Assembly (NCBI GenBank): GCA_937863505.1
Contig: CALMGC010000051.1
Span: 1-32,961 of the forward strand
Direction of reading: 5' to 3'
Source of the DNA: an uncultured Sphingomonadales bacterium
GTDB lineage: Bacteria > Pseudomonadota > Alphaproteobacteria > Sphingomonadales > Sphingomonadaceae
Length of the DNA stretch: 32,961 nucleotides
A program made the translations under genes and the position numbers. The notes under the pieces were generated by a model. The model was not told the DNA's origin. It searched no databases and worked only from the letters and a program-made list of their open reading frames with translations. Every line of letters begins with the position of its first letter. Position 1 is the first letter of the stretch. Below, piece by piece: positions 8,986 to 25,036 of this stretch.

Positions 8986-9780
8986 GTGAAACGAACTCAC
9001 CTTCCGCTCAACGGCCTGCGCGTCCTCGACGCCGCCGCCCGGCATCTCTCCTTCACACGCGCCGCCGACGAGCTCGCGGTGACGCCCGCCGCGGTCGGGC
9101 AGCAGGTGCGCGCGCTGGAGGAGACGCTGGGCGTGGTGCTGTTCCGCCGCACGACGCGTGGGCTGGAGCTGACGCCCGAGGGGGAGGCGGGGCTGGTGTC
9201 ACTGCGTGGCGGCTTTCTCCAGTTCGAGGAAGCGGTGCGCGCGATGCAGGCGGGGCAGTCGTCCAAATCGTTGACGATCGCCGCGCCGCGCGACGTGACG
9301 GAGAAGTGGCTGATGCCGCACCTCGCCCGGCTGGCGCGCGGCGACCGCGAGCTGCGCTTCCTCTTGGTCGCGACCGATGGCGAGCCCGACTTCACCGAAG
9401 CCAATCTCGATCTCGCGATCCGCTGGGCGGATGGGCCGGGTGATTACGAAGGGGAAGCGCTCGAGTCAGAAGGGCTGGTCGCGGTCGTTGCGCCCGACGG
9501 AGCCCGCGACGCGCCCGCGATCGCCTGGCCCGGCTGCCCGACCGAGGATGTGGGCGCGCCCGTTCGGGTCGCGGATGCGGGGCTGGCGATCGACGCGGCG
9601 GCGGAGGGGCTCGGTCGCGCGACCGTGCCCGAATTGCTCGCGCGACGCGATCTCGCGGCGGGGCGGGTGCGGGCGCTGGGCGAGCCCCGGCCCTCGCGGC
9701 TCGGCTATTGGCTCGTCGCCCCGCTCCCGCAATGGCGGCAGAAGAAGGTGCGCGCGCTGGTCAACGCGCTGACCGAATGA
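8986..9780 (+). CDS. LysR-family transcriptional regulator (GcvA-like)
   Basis: GTG start; LPLNGLRVLDAAARHLSFTRAADELAVTPAAVGQQVRALEETLGVVLFRRTTRGLELTPEGEAGL is the LysR HTH; LysR substrate-binding domain follows. Confidence 0.93.
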   Translation: MKRTHLPLNGLRVLDAAARHLSFTRAADELAVTPAAVGQQVRALEETLGVVLFRRTTRGLELTPEGEAGLVSLRGGFLQFEEAVRAMQAGQSSKSLTIAAPRDVTEKWLMPHLARLARGDRELRFLLVATDGEPDFTEANLDLAIRWADGPGDYEGEALESEGLVAVVAPDGARDAPAIAWPGCPTEDVGAPVRVADAGLAIDAAAEGLGRATVPELLARRDLAAGRVRALGEPRPSRLGYWLVAPLPQWRQKKVRALVNALTE

Positions 9781-10019
9781 GCGAGGACTTGGCCGCATAC
9801 CGGCACGCGGCGGCGCGGGTGGCGAGGCCTTTGCGAGTCGCTGGGCTTGCTCTGACGATTTTGGCGCTGGTGCTGGCGATGTGGCCGGGCCTGTCCAAAG
9901 CGGTGCCGCTCGCGATCGCCGCGCTCGCGTTGCTGCACCTGCTCGCCGCGATCAGCGTCCGGCTGCGTCGCCCCAAGCCGCAAATGCCAGCGCCTGACTG
10001 GTTAACGCCACGAAGCTGA
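9777..10019 (+). CDS. Small two-TM protein of unknown function
   Basis: 80 aa MSEDLAAYRHAAARVARPLRVAGLALTILALVLAMWPGLSKAVPLAIAALALLHLLAAISVRLRR; ATGA overlap with the upstream LysR gene. Confidence 0.65.
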   Translation: MSEDLAAYRHAAARVARPLRVAGLALTILALVLAMWPGLSKAVPLAIAALALLHLLAAISVRLRRPKPQMPAPDWLTPRS

Positions 10020-16981: not shown

Positions 16982-18244
16982 TTAATGAAGCGTTCCCGTC
17001 GCCTCGCCCGCCGCGCGGAACATCGCCAGCACCGTCGCGATCTGCTCGGGTGTGTGCTCGGCGCAGAGCGAGCAGCGGAGCAGGAAGGTCCCCGCCGGCG
17101 TCGCGGGCGGACGCGCCATGTTGACGTACAAGCCGCCTTCCAGAAGCGCCTGCCACATCGTCACCGCCTGTTGCTGGTCGTGGAGGATCACCGCGACGAT
17201 CGCGGACTGCGGCGTCGCCGTGCCGAGCGTGAAGCCCATTTCGGTCAGCCCCGCGTGAAGCGCGCGCGCATTGTCCCACAAGCGGCGGCGCTTGTCGTGC
17301 GCGAACATCAGCTTGCGGATCGACGCGGCGGCGGTGGCGACCACCGACGGAGGCAGCGAGGCGGTGAAGATATACGGGCGGCAGGCGAGCCGCATCACTT
17401 CGAACTTGGGATGGTTCGACACGCAGAAGCCGCCCACGGTGCCGACCGACTTGGAAAAGGTGCCGATGACGAAATCGACCTCGCCCTCCAGCCCCTGTTC
17501 CTCATACACGCCGCGCCCGTTGGGGCCGTAGAACCCCATAGAATGCGCTTCGTCGGACAGCGTCATGGCACCGTGTTTCTTCGCGACAGCAACCATTTCC
17601 GCCAGCGGCGCGACGTCGCCGAGCATCGAATATACGCCCTCGAGCACGACGAGCTTGCCCGCTTCCCTAGGCAGGCGGGACAGGCGACGATCGAGGTCCT
17701 CGACCGAATTATGGCGAAACCGCACGACCTCCGCATTGCCGAGCGCGCAGCCGTCATAAATCGACGCGTGGCTGTCCGCGTCGAGGATGATGTACTCGCC
17801 CTTGCCCGCGATCGTCGACAGGATGCCGAGGTTCGCCTGATAGCCGGTCGAGAACACCATCGCGTGCCGCGCGCCGTAGAACGCCTTTAGCGCCTCCTCC
17901 GCTTCGACATGGTCGCGAAAGGTGCCGTTGAGCATCCGGCTGCCGTTGGTGCCCGTCCCGAACCGGTCGAGCGCGTCCTTGCCCGCCCGGATCACGTCGG
18001 GGTCGAACGTCATGCCCATGTAATTGTAAGTGCCGAGCAGGATCGTCTTCCTGCCGCGGATCACCGCCTCGGTTGGCGAGGTGACCTCGTCCATGACGAT
18101 CCCGAACGGATCGCGCACCCCCGTCGCGAGCAGCGCCTCGCGCTCGGCGATGAGCGGGTCGAACTTGGAGAACAGGTCGCGCTCGGGAGCGACCGGGGCC
18201 GGGTCGAGCGTCAACGCCTCCGCTTGAAAGCCTGCCTCCGTCAT
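16982..18244 (-). CDS. spt: Serine palmitoyltransferase
   Basis: 420 aa; ILLGTYNYMGMTFDPDVIRAGKDALDRFGTGTNGSRMLNGTFRDHVEAEEAL...LSDEAHSMGFYGPNGRGVYEEQGL...VIGTFSKSVGTVGGFCV; close to Sphingomonas SPT as recalled. Confidence 0.96.
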   Translation of the reverse strand: MTEAGFQAEALTLDPAPVAPERDLFSKFDPLIAEREALLATGVRDPFGIVMDEVTSPTEAVIRGRKTILLGTYNYMGMTFDPDVIRAGKDALDRFGTGTNGSRMLNGTFRDHVEAEEALKAFYGARHAMVFSTGYQANLGILSTIAGKGEYIILDADSHASIYDGCALGNAEVVRFRHNSVEDLDRRLSRLPREAGKLVVLEGVYSMLGDVAPLAEMVAVAKKHGAMTLSDEAHSMGFYGPNGRGVYEEQGLEGEVDFVIGTFSKSVGTVGGFCVSNHPKFEVMRLACRPYIFTASLPPSVVATAAASIRKLMFAHDKRRRLWDNARALHAGLTEMGFTLGTATPQSAIVAVILHDQQQAVTMWQALLEGGLYVNMARPPATPAGTFLLRCSLCAEHTPEQIATVLAMFRAAGEATGTLH

Positions 18245-18483
18245 GCGGTGAGCTTGCCCACCGCATCGACGAGCTGGCCCACCGTCTCGATCTCCGCCTG
18301 CATGTTCATGGTAATGACGATATCGAACTCGTCCTCCACCGCCGCCACGAAGTCGAGCACGGTGAGGCTGTCCCATTCGAGGTCGCCCTGGAAGGTGGTC
18401 GCCTCGCTCAGCGCGACGCCCTTCTTGTTGAACGGCTCAATCTGGCGCGCGACGGTGTCGAAGATGTGCTGGCGGTCGGTCAT
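18241..18483 (-). CDS. Acyl carrier protein associated with serine palmitoyltransferase
   Basis: 80 aa; DLEWDSLTVLDFVAAVEDEFDIVI carries the phosphopantetheine DSL motif; 4-bp overlap with spt. Confidence 0.93.
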   Translation of the reverse strand: MTDRQHIFDTVARQIEPFNKKGVALSEATTFQGDLEWDSLTVLDFVAAVEDEFDIVITMNMQAEIETVGQLVDAVGKLTA

Positions 18484-18546
18484 GGGGAATCCTGATTGCC
18501 GGATGAATGCGGCGCGGTTGCGGCGGCGCGGCGCCACGTCCGCGCG

Positions 18547-20553: not shown

Positions 20554-21114
20554 TCAGTCGCGCGCGAACACGTCCGCGTGCGGGATGGTGAGGTCGAGCG
20601 CGGGGATCACGATCCCGCGCGTGCCGGAGAAGATATGGTCGAGCCAACCCTCCTCCAGCCGTTCGACCGTGCGGCAGAGCTCGGCGTCGGGATCGACGAA
20701 CGCGATCGTTCGGATGGAGGGCACGCCCTTGTACTCGGCCAGCTTTTCGCCTTGGTCGAACGCGGCGGTGCCCGGCGACAAAACCTCGATAACAATGGTC
20801 GGGTCCAGCAGCGCTTTGGTCCGACGAAGATCCTCGCGCGGCGGCTGGTCGCAAAAGACGCTTACATCGGGGTAGCGTACCTGCGTATCGCTGACCTGCA
20901 CCGCAAAGTCGGAATCGTACGGGCGGCAACGGCTACCGCGAAGGCGCGTACGCAGCCAGCTGTATATGTTGCCCTTCACCCAAGAGTGCGGTTCCAAGCC
21001 ACCAACCATGGCGACGATCATGCCGTCATGAAGCTCGAACTTGCGGTCGCTGCCGAAATCCATGTTAAGGAATTCGTCGGCAGTAATTTTGCGATAAGCT
21101 GGATCGAGGCGCAT
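20554..21114 (-). CDS. Uma2 family endonuclease-like protein (DUF820, PD-(D/E)XK fold)
   Basis: YRKITADEFLNMDFGSDRKFELHDGMIVAMVGG...YDSDFAVQVSDTQVRYPDVSVFCDQPP...DPTIVIEVLSPGTAAFDQGEKLAEYKGVPSIRTIAFVDPD. Confidence 0.93.
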   Translation of the reverse strand: MRLDPAYRKITADEFLNMDFGSDRKFELHDGMIVAMVGGLEPHSWVKGNIYSWLRTRLRGSRCRPYDSDFAVQVSDTQVRYPDVSVFCDQPPREDLRRTKALLDPTIVIEVLSPGTAAFDQGEKLAEYKGVPSIRTIAFVDPDAELCRTVERLEEGWLDHIFSGTRGIVIPALDLTIPHADVFARD

Positions 21115-22191: not shown

Positions 22192-22331
22192 TTTAGCGGA
22201 GCTAAAGCGAGGCTCGGCGAGTGTCGGGCCGGTCGTCCCCCGGACGACCTGAAACAGCCGGGGGCTGTTTCACCCGACACTCCCGGCCAGCGGCGTCCCA
22301 GCGCCGTCTGACGACGCGGGCTTTGCCCGCG
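22192..22331. repeat. Hairpin-dense intergenic island containing a three-way-junction palindrome (22219-22282)
   Basis: TTTAGC-GGA-GCTAAA (22192-22206); outer stem GAGTGTCGGG/CCCGACACTC (22219-22228/22273-22282) enclosing GGTCGTCC-CCC-GGACGACC (22231-22249) and TGAAACAGCC-GGG-GGCTGTTTCA (22250-22272); CGGCG-TCCCAG-CGCCG (22291-22306); CGCGGGC-TTT-GCCCGCG (22315-22331). Confidence 0.85.
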
Positions 22332-22525: not shown

Positions 22526-22900
22526 ATGGAAGTGATCAAATTCGGATCGGACGACCTGGAGAACAGGCTGGCCACGGACCCGTCGCGCGCCGAGCTGCTG
22601 CCGTTCGGGGCCATCATGGTCAACCAGCAGGGTGACGTGATCCGCTACAACCACGTCGAGTCGGGGATCAGCGGGCGCAACCCGGGCGACGTGGTCGGCA
22701 AGAACTTCTTCAACGACGTCGCCCCGTGCGCGAAAGGGCAGGCGTTTTATAATCACTTCTTCCGCGCCGTCGCCGACGGCCATGTCAACACCATGTTCGA
22801 CTACCAGTTCGACTACAAGATGCAGGCGACCAACGTACGCATCCACATGAAATCCGCCGATGCCGCCCGCGGCATCTGGATCTTCATCAAGCGCGTCTGA
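22526..22900 (+). CDS. pyp: Photoactive yellow protein (PAS-fold blue-light receptor)
   Basis: 124 aa; MEVIKFGSDDLENRLA...LPFGAIMVNQQGDVIRYNHVESGISGRNPGDVVGKNFFNDVAPCAKGQAFYNHF...NTMFDYQFDYKMQATNVRIHMK...IFIKRV. Collinear with recalled Halorhodospira PYP, retaining chromophore Cys (DVAPC), Tyr42, Glu46 and Arg52 equivalents. Confidence 0.95.
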   Translation: MEVIKFGSDDLENRLATDPSRAELLPFGAIMVNQQGDVIRYNHVESGISGRNPGDVVGKNFFNDVAPCAKGQAFYNHFFRAVADGHVNTMFDYQFDYKMQATNVRIHMKSADAARGIWIFIKRV

Positions 22901-22928
22901 GCGTGCCGCCTCTCTGGAGATCGAAGCA

Positions 22929-23306
22929 ATGAAAGAGACACCTATCGAGAGGGCGGGCGATTACGACTCCGACCTGTTCTCGCCCGAGGAGTTGGAGATG
23001 ATGCACGGCGCGCAGGGCGTGACGGAAGAAGCGGACTTGCACCACGACGCGGTCGAGTTGCAGCGGCAATACGCCGCGCTCGCGCGCATGGTGGCGGAGG
23101 GCGGCGAGCGCGAGCGGCAGCTGCGCGCGCTGGTCAACGAGCTGAGCCTCCTCGCCAAGGCGAACGAGCAGCAGCGTTCCTATCACGAGCAGACGCAGAA
23201 CCTCGCCCGGCTGGTGCTGGCGAGCAGCGAGCGCGAGCTCCACCTCCAGCAATGTCTGGAGGCGGTCCGCAACGTCGCGTTGACGCGCGTCCGCAACATC
23301 GTCTGA
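22929..23306 (+). CDS. Small coiled-coil/helical protein of unknown function, downstream of pyp
   Basis: 125 aa MKETPIERAGDYDSDLFSPEELEMMHGAQGVTEEADLHHDAVELQRQYAALARMVAEGGERERQLRALVNELSLLAKANEQQ...; 28-bp gap to pyp. Confidence 0.75.
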   Translation: MKETPIERAGDYDSDLFSPEELEMMHGAQGVTEEADLHHDAVELQRQYAALARMVAEGGERERQLRALVNELSLLAKANEQQRSYHEQTQNLARLVLASSERELHLQQCLEAVRNVALTRVRNIV

Positions 23307-23319
23307 GCCGAGCGACCCC

Positions 23320-23829
23320 ATGCAGACTGCGACCCAAGCCGCCGCTTCGCCCTTCCGCGAGCTGCGCCACCTCGACCAGCAAGCGCAGGACCGGCTCGCC
23401 GACCTCGGTGCGACACTCGCGCCGATGCAGGCGCTGAAGCGCACCGGGCGTCGCCCGTTGCTGTTCAACGGCACCACCGTCGCGACGATGTGCGGGGTCA
23501 CCCCGGCGCTGCCCTTCTGGTACGAGTTGAACGTCCACCGGACGGTGATCGGCAGCTATGTCAGCGACATCCGGCTGTTCCACAAATCCCCCGACCTCCA
23601 CGACCTGTTCTGGGTCGAGGAGCATGACGAGCTGGAAGCCGTGGTCAGCTATCTCGAACGCTACGACCCGGCGGGGGACGTCGGCGTACCGCGCGAGATG
23701 ACGACGCGCGCAGGCTCGCCGGCGGAGCTGGCGCTGTGGACGGCGCGGTTGCAGATGCAGGTCGATGCGATCACGCAGCACTACCGCGCGCTGGCGGGCG
23801 AGCTGTTGCACACGCTCACCAAGGGGTAA
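23320..23829 (+). CDS. Conserved-looking protein of unknown function, pyp operon
   Basis: 169 aa MQTATQAAASPFRELRHLDQQAQDRLADLGATLAPMQALKRTGRRPLLFNGTTVATMCGVTPALPFWYELNVHRTVIGSYVSDIRLFHKSPDLHDLFWVEEHDELEAVVSYLERYDP...; 13-bp gap to the preceding gene. Confidence 0.75.
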   Translation: MQTATQAAASPFRELRHLDQQAQDRLADLGATLAPMQALKRTGRRPLLFNGTTVATMCGVTPALPFWYELNVHRTVIGSYVSDIRLFHKSPDLHDLFWVEEHDELEAVVSYLERYDPAGDVGVPREMTTRAGSPAELALWTARLQMQVDAITQHYRALAGELLHTLTKG

Positions 23830-23865
23830 GGCGCACTCCTCTCCTTGGTGGGGAGGAGCCTTACC
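23825..23865. terminator. Bidirectional terminator-like hairpin spanning both convergent stop codons
   Basis: Outer GGTAAGGC(23825-23832)/GCCTTACC(23858-23865), inner CTCCTCTCC(23836-23844)-TTGGT-GGGGAGGAG(23850-23858). The TAA of the 169-aa gene and the TAA of the ligase both lie in the stem. Confidence 0.7.
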
Positions 23866-25036
23866 AGTCCGCGGGCTTCCCCATCGCGTTGACCGGTAAC
23901 GCCCCGCCCAGCGCGAAGCGGCGCGGGCGTTCGGGCGCGGAAAGGCGGTCGCCGCACCAGCGGTCGAGATTGCCCAGCAGCGCTTCGTCCTCGGCGCCCA
24001 CCGGCACGACAAACGCCTTCAACCGCCCCGTGTCCGCCTCCAGCCGCACCACCGCGTCCGCCACCCCGGCATGGGCGAGCAGGGTGTCGCGCACCCGCGC
24101 GGGAAAGACGTTGACGCCGCCGACCTGCACCGCGCCGTCGCGGCGGCCCTCGACCACAAAGTGCCGCTTGCCGAGCCAGCGGAGGTGATCGGGCACCCCG
24201 GCCGCGAGCCGGGTTCCATCGGCCAGCAGCCGTTCCAACCGCCCGTCCTGTGCGGACCAGCCGTCCAGCAGTGTATAGGCCGCGCCCTCATGCTCGCGCA
24301 CCGCGACGCCGCCCGTCTCGCTCGACCCATAGACCTCGACCAGCCGTTCCAGCCGTTGCCCGCGCAGGCGATGCGCGAGCTGCGACGGCATCGGCGCGGT
24401 TGAGGTGACGCCGGTGACGCCGTCAGGAAAGGCGAGCAGCGAGCGGGCGAGATAGGCCCAGTGCGTCGGCGTCCCGATCACCAAGGTGGCCGGCGCGGCG
24501 GCGCGCACCGCTTCCGCGCCCGTCACCTCGACCAGCTCGCACCCGAGCAGGTCGGGGAGCAGCGCGGTGAAGATCGCGCCATAGATGTGATGTCCCGGCA
24601 CCAACGCGACGACGCGGCGGGTGCCCGCGAACCGCGCCGCCCAGCCGTCCGCTTCCGCGCTAAGATCGGCGATCGCGTGGGTGCAGCGCTTGGGCTCGCC
24701 GGTCGACCCGGAGGTGCGGAAGGTCAGGTGCGTTCCCGTCGCCGCCAGTGATTGCTCGATCAGGTCGCACCAATCACCGACGCTCGGCAGGGCGAGCAGG
24801 TAATCCTCCACGCCGTGCTCGTGGAGATGAAAGAATTCGTTAAGCGCGGAGGCGACGTCGAGCCGTTCGAGGCTGTCGAGATCGAGCCCGCCCTCGTCGA
24901 CCCGCGTGGCCTCGCTCCAGCCCGCCCGCCCCAGCGTCGCCGCCGACCGCCCGCGCGACCGCGCCAGCTCGGCGGCGAGGAGGTCGAGCACGAGCCGCCG
25001 CACCGCGCGACGCGACAGGACAGGGGTGGACGCCAT
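23861..25036 (-). CDS. AMP-forming acyl/aryl-CoA ligase with N-terminal carrier-protein-like domain; probable p-coumarate-activating enzyme for PYP
   Basis: N-terminal GGLDLDSLERLDVASALNEFFHLHEHGVEDYLLALPSVGDWCDLIEQSL (ACP-like DSL); A-domain motifs LTFRTSGSTGEPKRCTH, LVEVYGSSETGGVAVRE, VEGRRDGAVQVGGVNVFPARV, LPVNAMGKPADW. Confidence 0.85.
   Translation of the reverse strand: MASTPVLSRRAVRRLVLDLLAAELARSRGRSAATLGRAGWSEATRVDEGGLDLDSLERLDVASALNEFFHLHEHGVEDYLLALPSVGDWCDLIEQSLAATGTHLTFRTSGSTGEPKRCTHAIADLSAEADGWAARFAGTRRVVALVPGHHIYGAIFTALLPDLLGCELVEVTGAEAVRAAAPATLVIGTPTHWAYLARSLLAFPDGVTGVTSTAPMPSQLAHRLRGQRLERLVEVYGSSETGGVAVREHEGAAYTLLDGWSAQDGRLERLLADGTRLAAGVPDHLRWLGKRHFVVEGRRDGAVQVGGVNVFPARVRDTLLAHAGVADAVVRLEADTGRLKAFVVPVGAEDEALLGNLDRWCGDRLSAPERPRRFALGGALPVNAMGKPADW

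Follow-up and report, generated by a model that had tools for sequence, protein, structure and literature searches.

Which protein takes up the light signal from a single-domain photoactive yellow protein (PYP) is stated to be an open question in PMC9664959 and PMC12826048, neighbourhood surveys from 2022 and 2025 which, in their accessible parts, propose kinases, GGDEF/EAL proteins and chemoreceptors as partners. The locus described here raises this question in a compact form. In a 32,961-nucleotide stretch of DNA from an uncultured Sphingomonadales bacterium (hereafter the window), pyp is followed by two ORFs coding for P0002 and P0003, which are faced by a ligase gene, pcl (Table 1). An original prediction, made from the letters alone, regarded both proteins as candidate signalling partners or chromophore-loading factors of PYP, and named their co-occurrence with pyp in other genomes as the means of checking this.

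Table 1. Features of the pyp locus, in coordinates of the window
Feature	Position	Strand	Basis or remark
pyp, photoactive yellow protein, 124 aa	22526..22900	+	TIGR02373; chromophore residues Y41, E45, C68
P0002, 125 aa, predicted single long helix with internal repeat	22929..23306	+	homologue only in sphingomonad L023
P0003, 169 aa, A-type member of an apparently undescribed pyp/gas-vesicle-linked family	23320..23829	+	
hairpin between convergent P0003 and pcl, probable shared terminator	23826..23866	.	fold energy
pcl, PYP-type 4-coumarate ligase, 391 aa	23861..25036	-	TIGR02372
carrier-like N-terminal region of pcl; Ser55 codon 24872-24874	24731..25036	-	homologue alignment, weak profiles

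All four ORFs were recovered at the positions originally called. The product of pyp passes the equivalog cut-off of TIGR02373 (157 against 143 bits), is 49% identical to the PYP of Halorhodospira halophila and keeps Tyr42, Glu46 and Cys69 in the alignment as Y41, E45 and C68; Cys68 is the predicted p-coumarate acceptor. The tight plus-strand order is borne out by gaps of 28 bp between pyp and P0002 and of 13 bp between P0002 and P0003, and so is the convergence with the ligase, whose stop codon is 31 bp from P0003; the hairpin common to the two genes (-23.4 kcal/mol, z -3.8, with 0 of 200 shuffles equally good) is probably their shared terminator. P0002 and P0003 are real genes: their composition is that of coding sequence (GC3 0.91), and third codon positions show the lowest conservation against their homologues at a second sphingomonad locus, L023. 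A search of the window against Rfam gave no match. By eye, nested inverted repeats are visible at 22220-22290, where 350 bp separate obgE from the divergently oriented pyp, as a possible regulatory or repeat element.

A scan of 85,462 genomes yielded 293 PYP relatives, of which the best 80 were retained with up to 10 kb of flanking sequence, and here the two proteins parted company. P0002 has a homologue at only one other locus among these best 80 of the 293 (L023, tblastn), so that its expected co-occurrence with pyp mostly fails and it can be ruled out as a general PYP partner. It is helical, as had been described, in an AlphaFold2 model built from an alignment of two sequences only, where residues 19-124 form one helix; Pfam, NCBIfam, PHROGs and PDB sequence searches gave nothing convincing for it. 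Relatives of P0003, on the other hand, adjoin pyp in 16 of the 80 loci, a set made up of the relatives nearest to the window PYP rather than an even sample, and do so again in an independent genome, G659. All 16 loci are alphaproteobacterial, and in them the family genes are tight neighbours of pyp. An iterated HMM search returned 47 ORF hits, corresponding to 46 distinct genes as the window gene was counted twice (in the window and in L002), with usually three paralogues per locus: type B is the first family gene after pyp, type A (that of P0003) the next, and type C lies upstream of pyp or elsewhere nearby. The A copies form a single clade (SH-aLRT 94), and it is an A copy only, next to pyp, that the window retains.

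This protein family is apparently undescribed. The literature searched, in its accessible parts, contained no description of it; Kyndt 2004 or supplementary tables may mention these ORFs. P0003 itself found nothing convincing in PHROGs, Pfam, NCBIfam or PDB sequences, and the family as a whole produced no convincing match over Pfam or NCBIfam cut-offs and none over the PDB cut-off. Some relatives, not including P0003, show a sub-cut-off likeness to the EXLDI protein TIGR04342 (weak matches in 5 of 42 members, best 1.5e-3; for the G659 member 6.6e-4 and 20 bits, short of the 32-bit cut-off), which we treat as a lead only. A plasmid or phage origin of P0003 was considered and rejected, with no plasmid match and phage matches at E 0.2 only, and in BFVD the sole match below 0.001 carries no name and has an rmsd of 11. 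The family stands as a specific and conserved candidate tied to PYP in one clade.

The original prediction holds in part. What it missed is the decisive setting, that of gas-vesicle (gvp) clusters: GvpA and GvpN queries match exactly the family-bearing pyp loci, with no hit elsewhere among the pyp loci surveyed. In L034 the gene order is pyp-B-A-pcl-gvpN-gvpO-gvpA with more gvp genes downstream, and in L023 it is gvpN, gvpA, lyase, pyp. The association of PYP with gas vesicles is itself already published: pyp lies beside gas-vesicle genes in Rhodobacter capsulatus and Loktanella sp. SE-62 (Kyndt 2004, cited in PMC3646047), and PMC6273459 includes gas vesicles and buoyancy in one of its tables; 'gas vesicle' does not occur in the accessible part of PMC12826048. 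By sequence comparison, the window locus is recognisable as a PYP cassette of this gas-vesicle-linked alphaproteobacterial clade. It resembles the R. capsulatus and Loktanella loci, as given in the cited literature, in that its PYP groups with those of such clusters, and differs from them in the lack of gvp genes in the window, with none found in its genome, in having one family copy and in the extra helical P0002. Immediately upstream of pyp, clusters of the Rhodobacteraceae type and G659 carry a second protein family (L105:11503-12000; L033, L034, L035, L040, L041, L043-L046; L026 ~9530-9925), which is absent from the window; the two members scanned gave no Pfam or NCBIfam match.

An even sample of 385 alphaproteobacterial genomes was searched for the family, for PYP over the cut-off and for GvpA, which were found in 2, 6 and 4 genomes, respectively. 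Both family-bearing genomes, G659 and that of the window, carry PYP, and the family is absent from the four PYP-only and the three gvp-only genomes. G659 possesses PYP and gvp genes, with the family gene ~2.6 kb from one pyp; its second pyp (L106, G659:C69:521-886) is on another contig and is adjoined by a pcl-like match. Among ten further whole PYP genomes, hand-picked and with two of them serving as positive controls, the family occurs in 2/2 with GvpA (three copies each) and in 0/8 without. Summed over whole genomes, it is found in 0 of 12 with PYP and no gvp, in 0 of 3 with gvp and no PYP, and in 3 of 3 with both.

We suggest, with a probability of about 0.5, that P0003 is an effector or adaptor coupling light-driven changes in PYP to buoyancy control, this being the best-supported reading of the locus. 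A probable tyrosine ammonia-lyase (TAL), encoded elsewhere in the genome, would make p-coumarate, which pcl would activate and Cys68 of PYP would take up; P0003 would then couple the resulting light responses to buoyancy, probably by protein-protein contact. In relatives up to three paralogues (A, B and C) adjoin pyp and gvp genes, and in the window the A copy alone remains, together with a lineage-specific helical protein and away from detectable gvp genes. It is from the gene identities, the family and its linkage and co-occurrence, as observed in the genomes, that we infer the contact with PYP, the direction of the signal and the buoyancy output. P0003 is a candidate, open to experimental test, for the much-sought relay of the PYP light signal, and the gas-vesicle context points to a phenotype worth measuring as PYP output: in the gvp-bearing relative Rhodobacter sp. 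KR11, which has three paralogues, the readout (buoyancy, refractile vesicles) is a visible one.

The strongest alternative is that the family consists of gas-vesicle assembly or regulatory accessories whose only tie to PYP is a common gene cluster; the window copy would then be a remnant, or its gvp genes would be missing from the assembly. The perfect overlap of the family with gvp clusters among pyp loci is what this would predict, and the PYP tree adds to it. In that tree, built on 125 columns and with many weak forks, the PYPs that have family genes alongside group together (2 label changes, against 16.6 under shuffling), and nested among them are those of Belnapia and Craurococcus, in which pyp and pcl are kept and gvp genes and the P0003 family are both absent. 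As the two were lost together while pyp stayed, the function of the family may lie with gas vesicles and not with PYP; the pattern links it no less closely to gas vesicles than to PYP, and for this reason the alternative is retained as a real possibility, on balance an unlikely one. Speaking against it, in small numbers, are the three gvp-bearing genomes without PYP, which lack the family, and the window copy, retained beside pyp with no gvp gene found. Independent events are few, since most of the co-occurrence comes from one PYP clade.

The exception is the genome of the window, the one in which P0003 is present without any gvp gene detected. GvpA and GvpN had no match in the window and GvpA had none in the genome; GvpF/L (PF06386) likewise gave no hit there, nor in any control genome, though the model does match L034 proteins. 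The assembly comprises 324 contigs and is 87.7% complete, and gvp genes could lie in its missing part, because the order in L023 is gvpN-gvpA-lyase-pyp and the lyase of the window's genome is cut by a contig end. Unless they do, buoyancy as an output is unsupported in this organism. It may be that P0003 represents a new class of PYP effector: it would bind PYP and relay whether the sensor is lit, as a rule to the formation of gas vesicles, and would have been kept in this sphingomonad after gas-vesicle loss for a new light output; we offer this extension tentatively and regard it as doubtful.

It is improbable that P0003 is instead a nucleic-acid-binding regulator of PUR/whirly-like fold switched by PYP. 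Its predicted structure (mean pLDDT 88.9) combines a sheet of five strands with short helices and, at residues 134-168, one long helix at the C-terminus, and the highest-probability PDB match is the PUR domain of Borrelia Pur-alpha (3nm7; Foldseek probability 0.97, target TM 0.61, rmsd 2.9 over ~63 residues), which overlaps part of the sheet-plus-helix core. The E-value of this partial overlap is however 0.2, there is no sequence match, the long C-terminal helix is extra to P0003, and the pI of A-type proteins is in the acidic range (median 5.1, range 4.5-6.0), which argues against simple nucleic-acid binding.

The part of the original prediction that concerned signalling survives for P0003 as the coupling role proposed above. 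A contribution of P0002 and/or P0003 to loading the chromophore onto PYP, suggestive as their operon position between pyp and pcl may be, is very improbable, and neither protein resembles a chromophore loader: 12 gvp-less PYP genomes, several having pcl beside pyp and three having PYPs that nest within the family-bearing group, lack the P0003 family, and P0002 is confined to two loci. Moreover, E. coli supplied with the two enzymes of chromophore biosynthesis has reportedly yielded the holoprotein for both H. halophila and R. capsulatus PYP.

The ligase scores 352 bits against the TIGR02372 equivalog cut-off of 335, so that its carrier-like architecture, singled out in the original prediction, is ordinary for PYP loci. 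The Pfam AMP-binding match begins only at position 170 of 384, and the N-terminal ~95 residues show likeness to a carrier domain. Profiles hint weakly at a true phosphopantetheine carrier domain: PF00550 gave weak matches in only 8 of 26 such N-termini (best 1.9e-3) and none in the window copy, and against the PDB acyl carrier proteins rank first (E 0.015), followed by T4 lysozymes (0.05). Because the serine of the D-S-L motif (Ser55) in this region is invariant in 85 of 85 aligned homologues, ligases of the PYP type might transfer p-coumarate to a phosphopantetheine arm of their own and not to free CoA, which raises the question of how the chromophore is handed over.

An ammonia-lyase gene had been noted as lacking, and this is true of the window. 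The genome search proposed at the same time nevertheless recovered a 299-aa aromatic lyase fragment (PF00221, 281 bits) at the end of another contig, C179, where the contig end interrupts the reading frame. The fragment is 52% identical to the lyase adjoining pyp in L023 and contains VYHL, which we take to be the His-Leu selectivity motif of tyrosine ammonia-lyase. It is probably a TAL, which would explain the 'missing' enzyme. With pyp, a PYP-type pcl and a lyase in the genome, the system resembles the pyp-pcl-TAL operon reported for H. halophila in the accessible part of PMC12826048, and is unlike it in that pcl is convergent, the lyase is unlinked and P0002 and P0003 are added.

As to the origin of the locus, PYP was not found in ten genomes of the same genus, and acquisition of pyp by transfer in this lineage is therefore plausible. 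An empty-site comparison did not recover the ancestral junction: among the loci of this genus that were examined, no pyp was found on the 5' side of obgE, and five showed neither nupC nor pyp within ~12 kb of it. Between obgE and proB the window carries a 186-aa ORF (20554-21114, minus strand) that is also found beside obgE in four same-genus genomes at ~45% identity and was not found in the remaining ones examined. At 16982-18537 on the minus strand, an aminotransferase-like ORF is accompanied by a small protein of acyl-carrier type; by eye the two look like a serine palmitoyltransferase-type sphingolipid pair.
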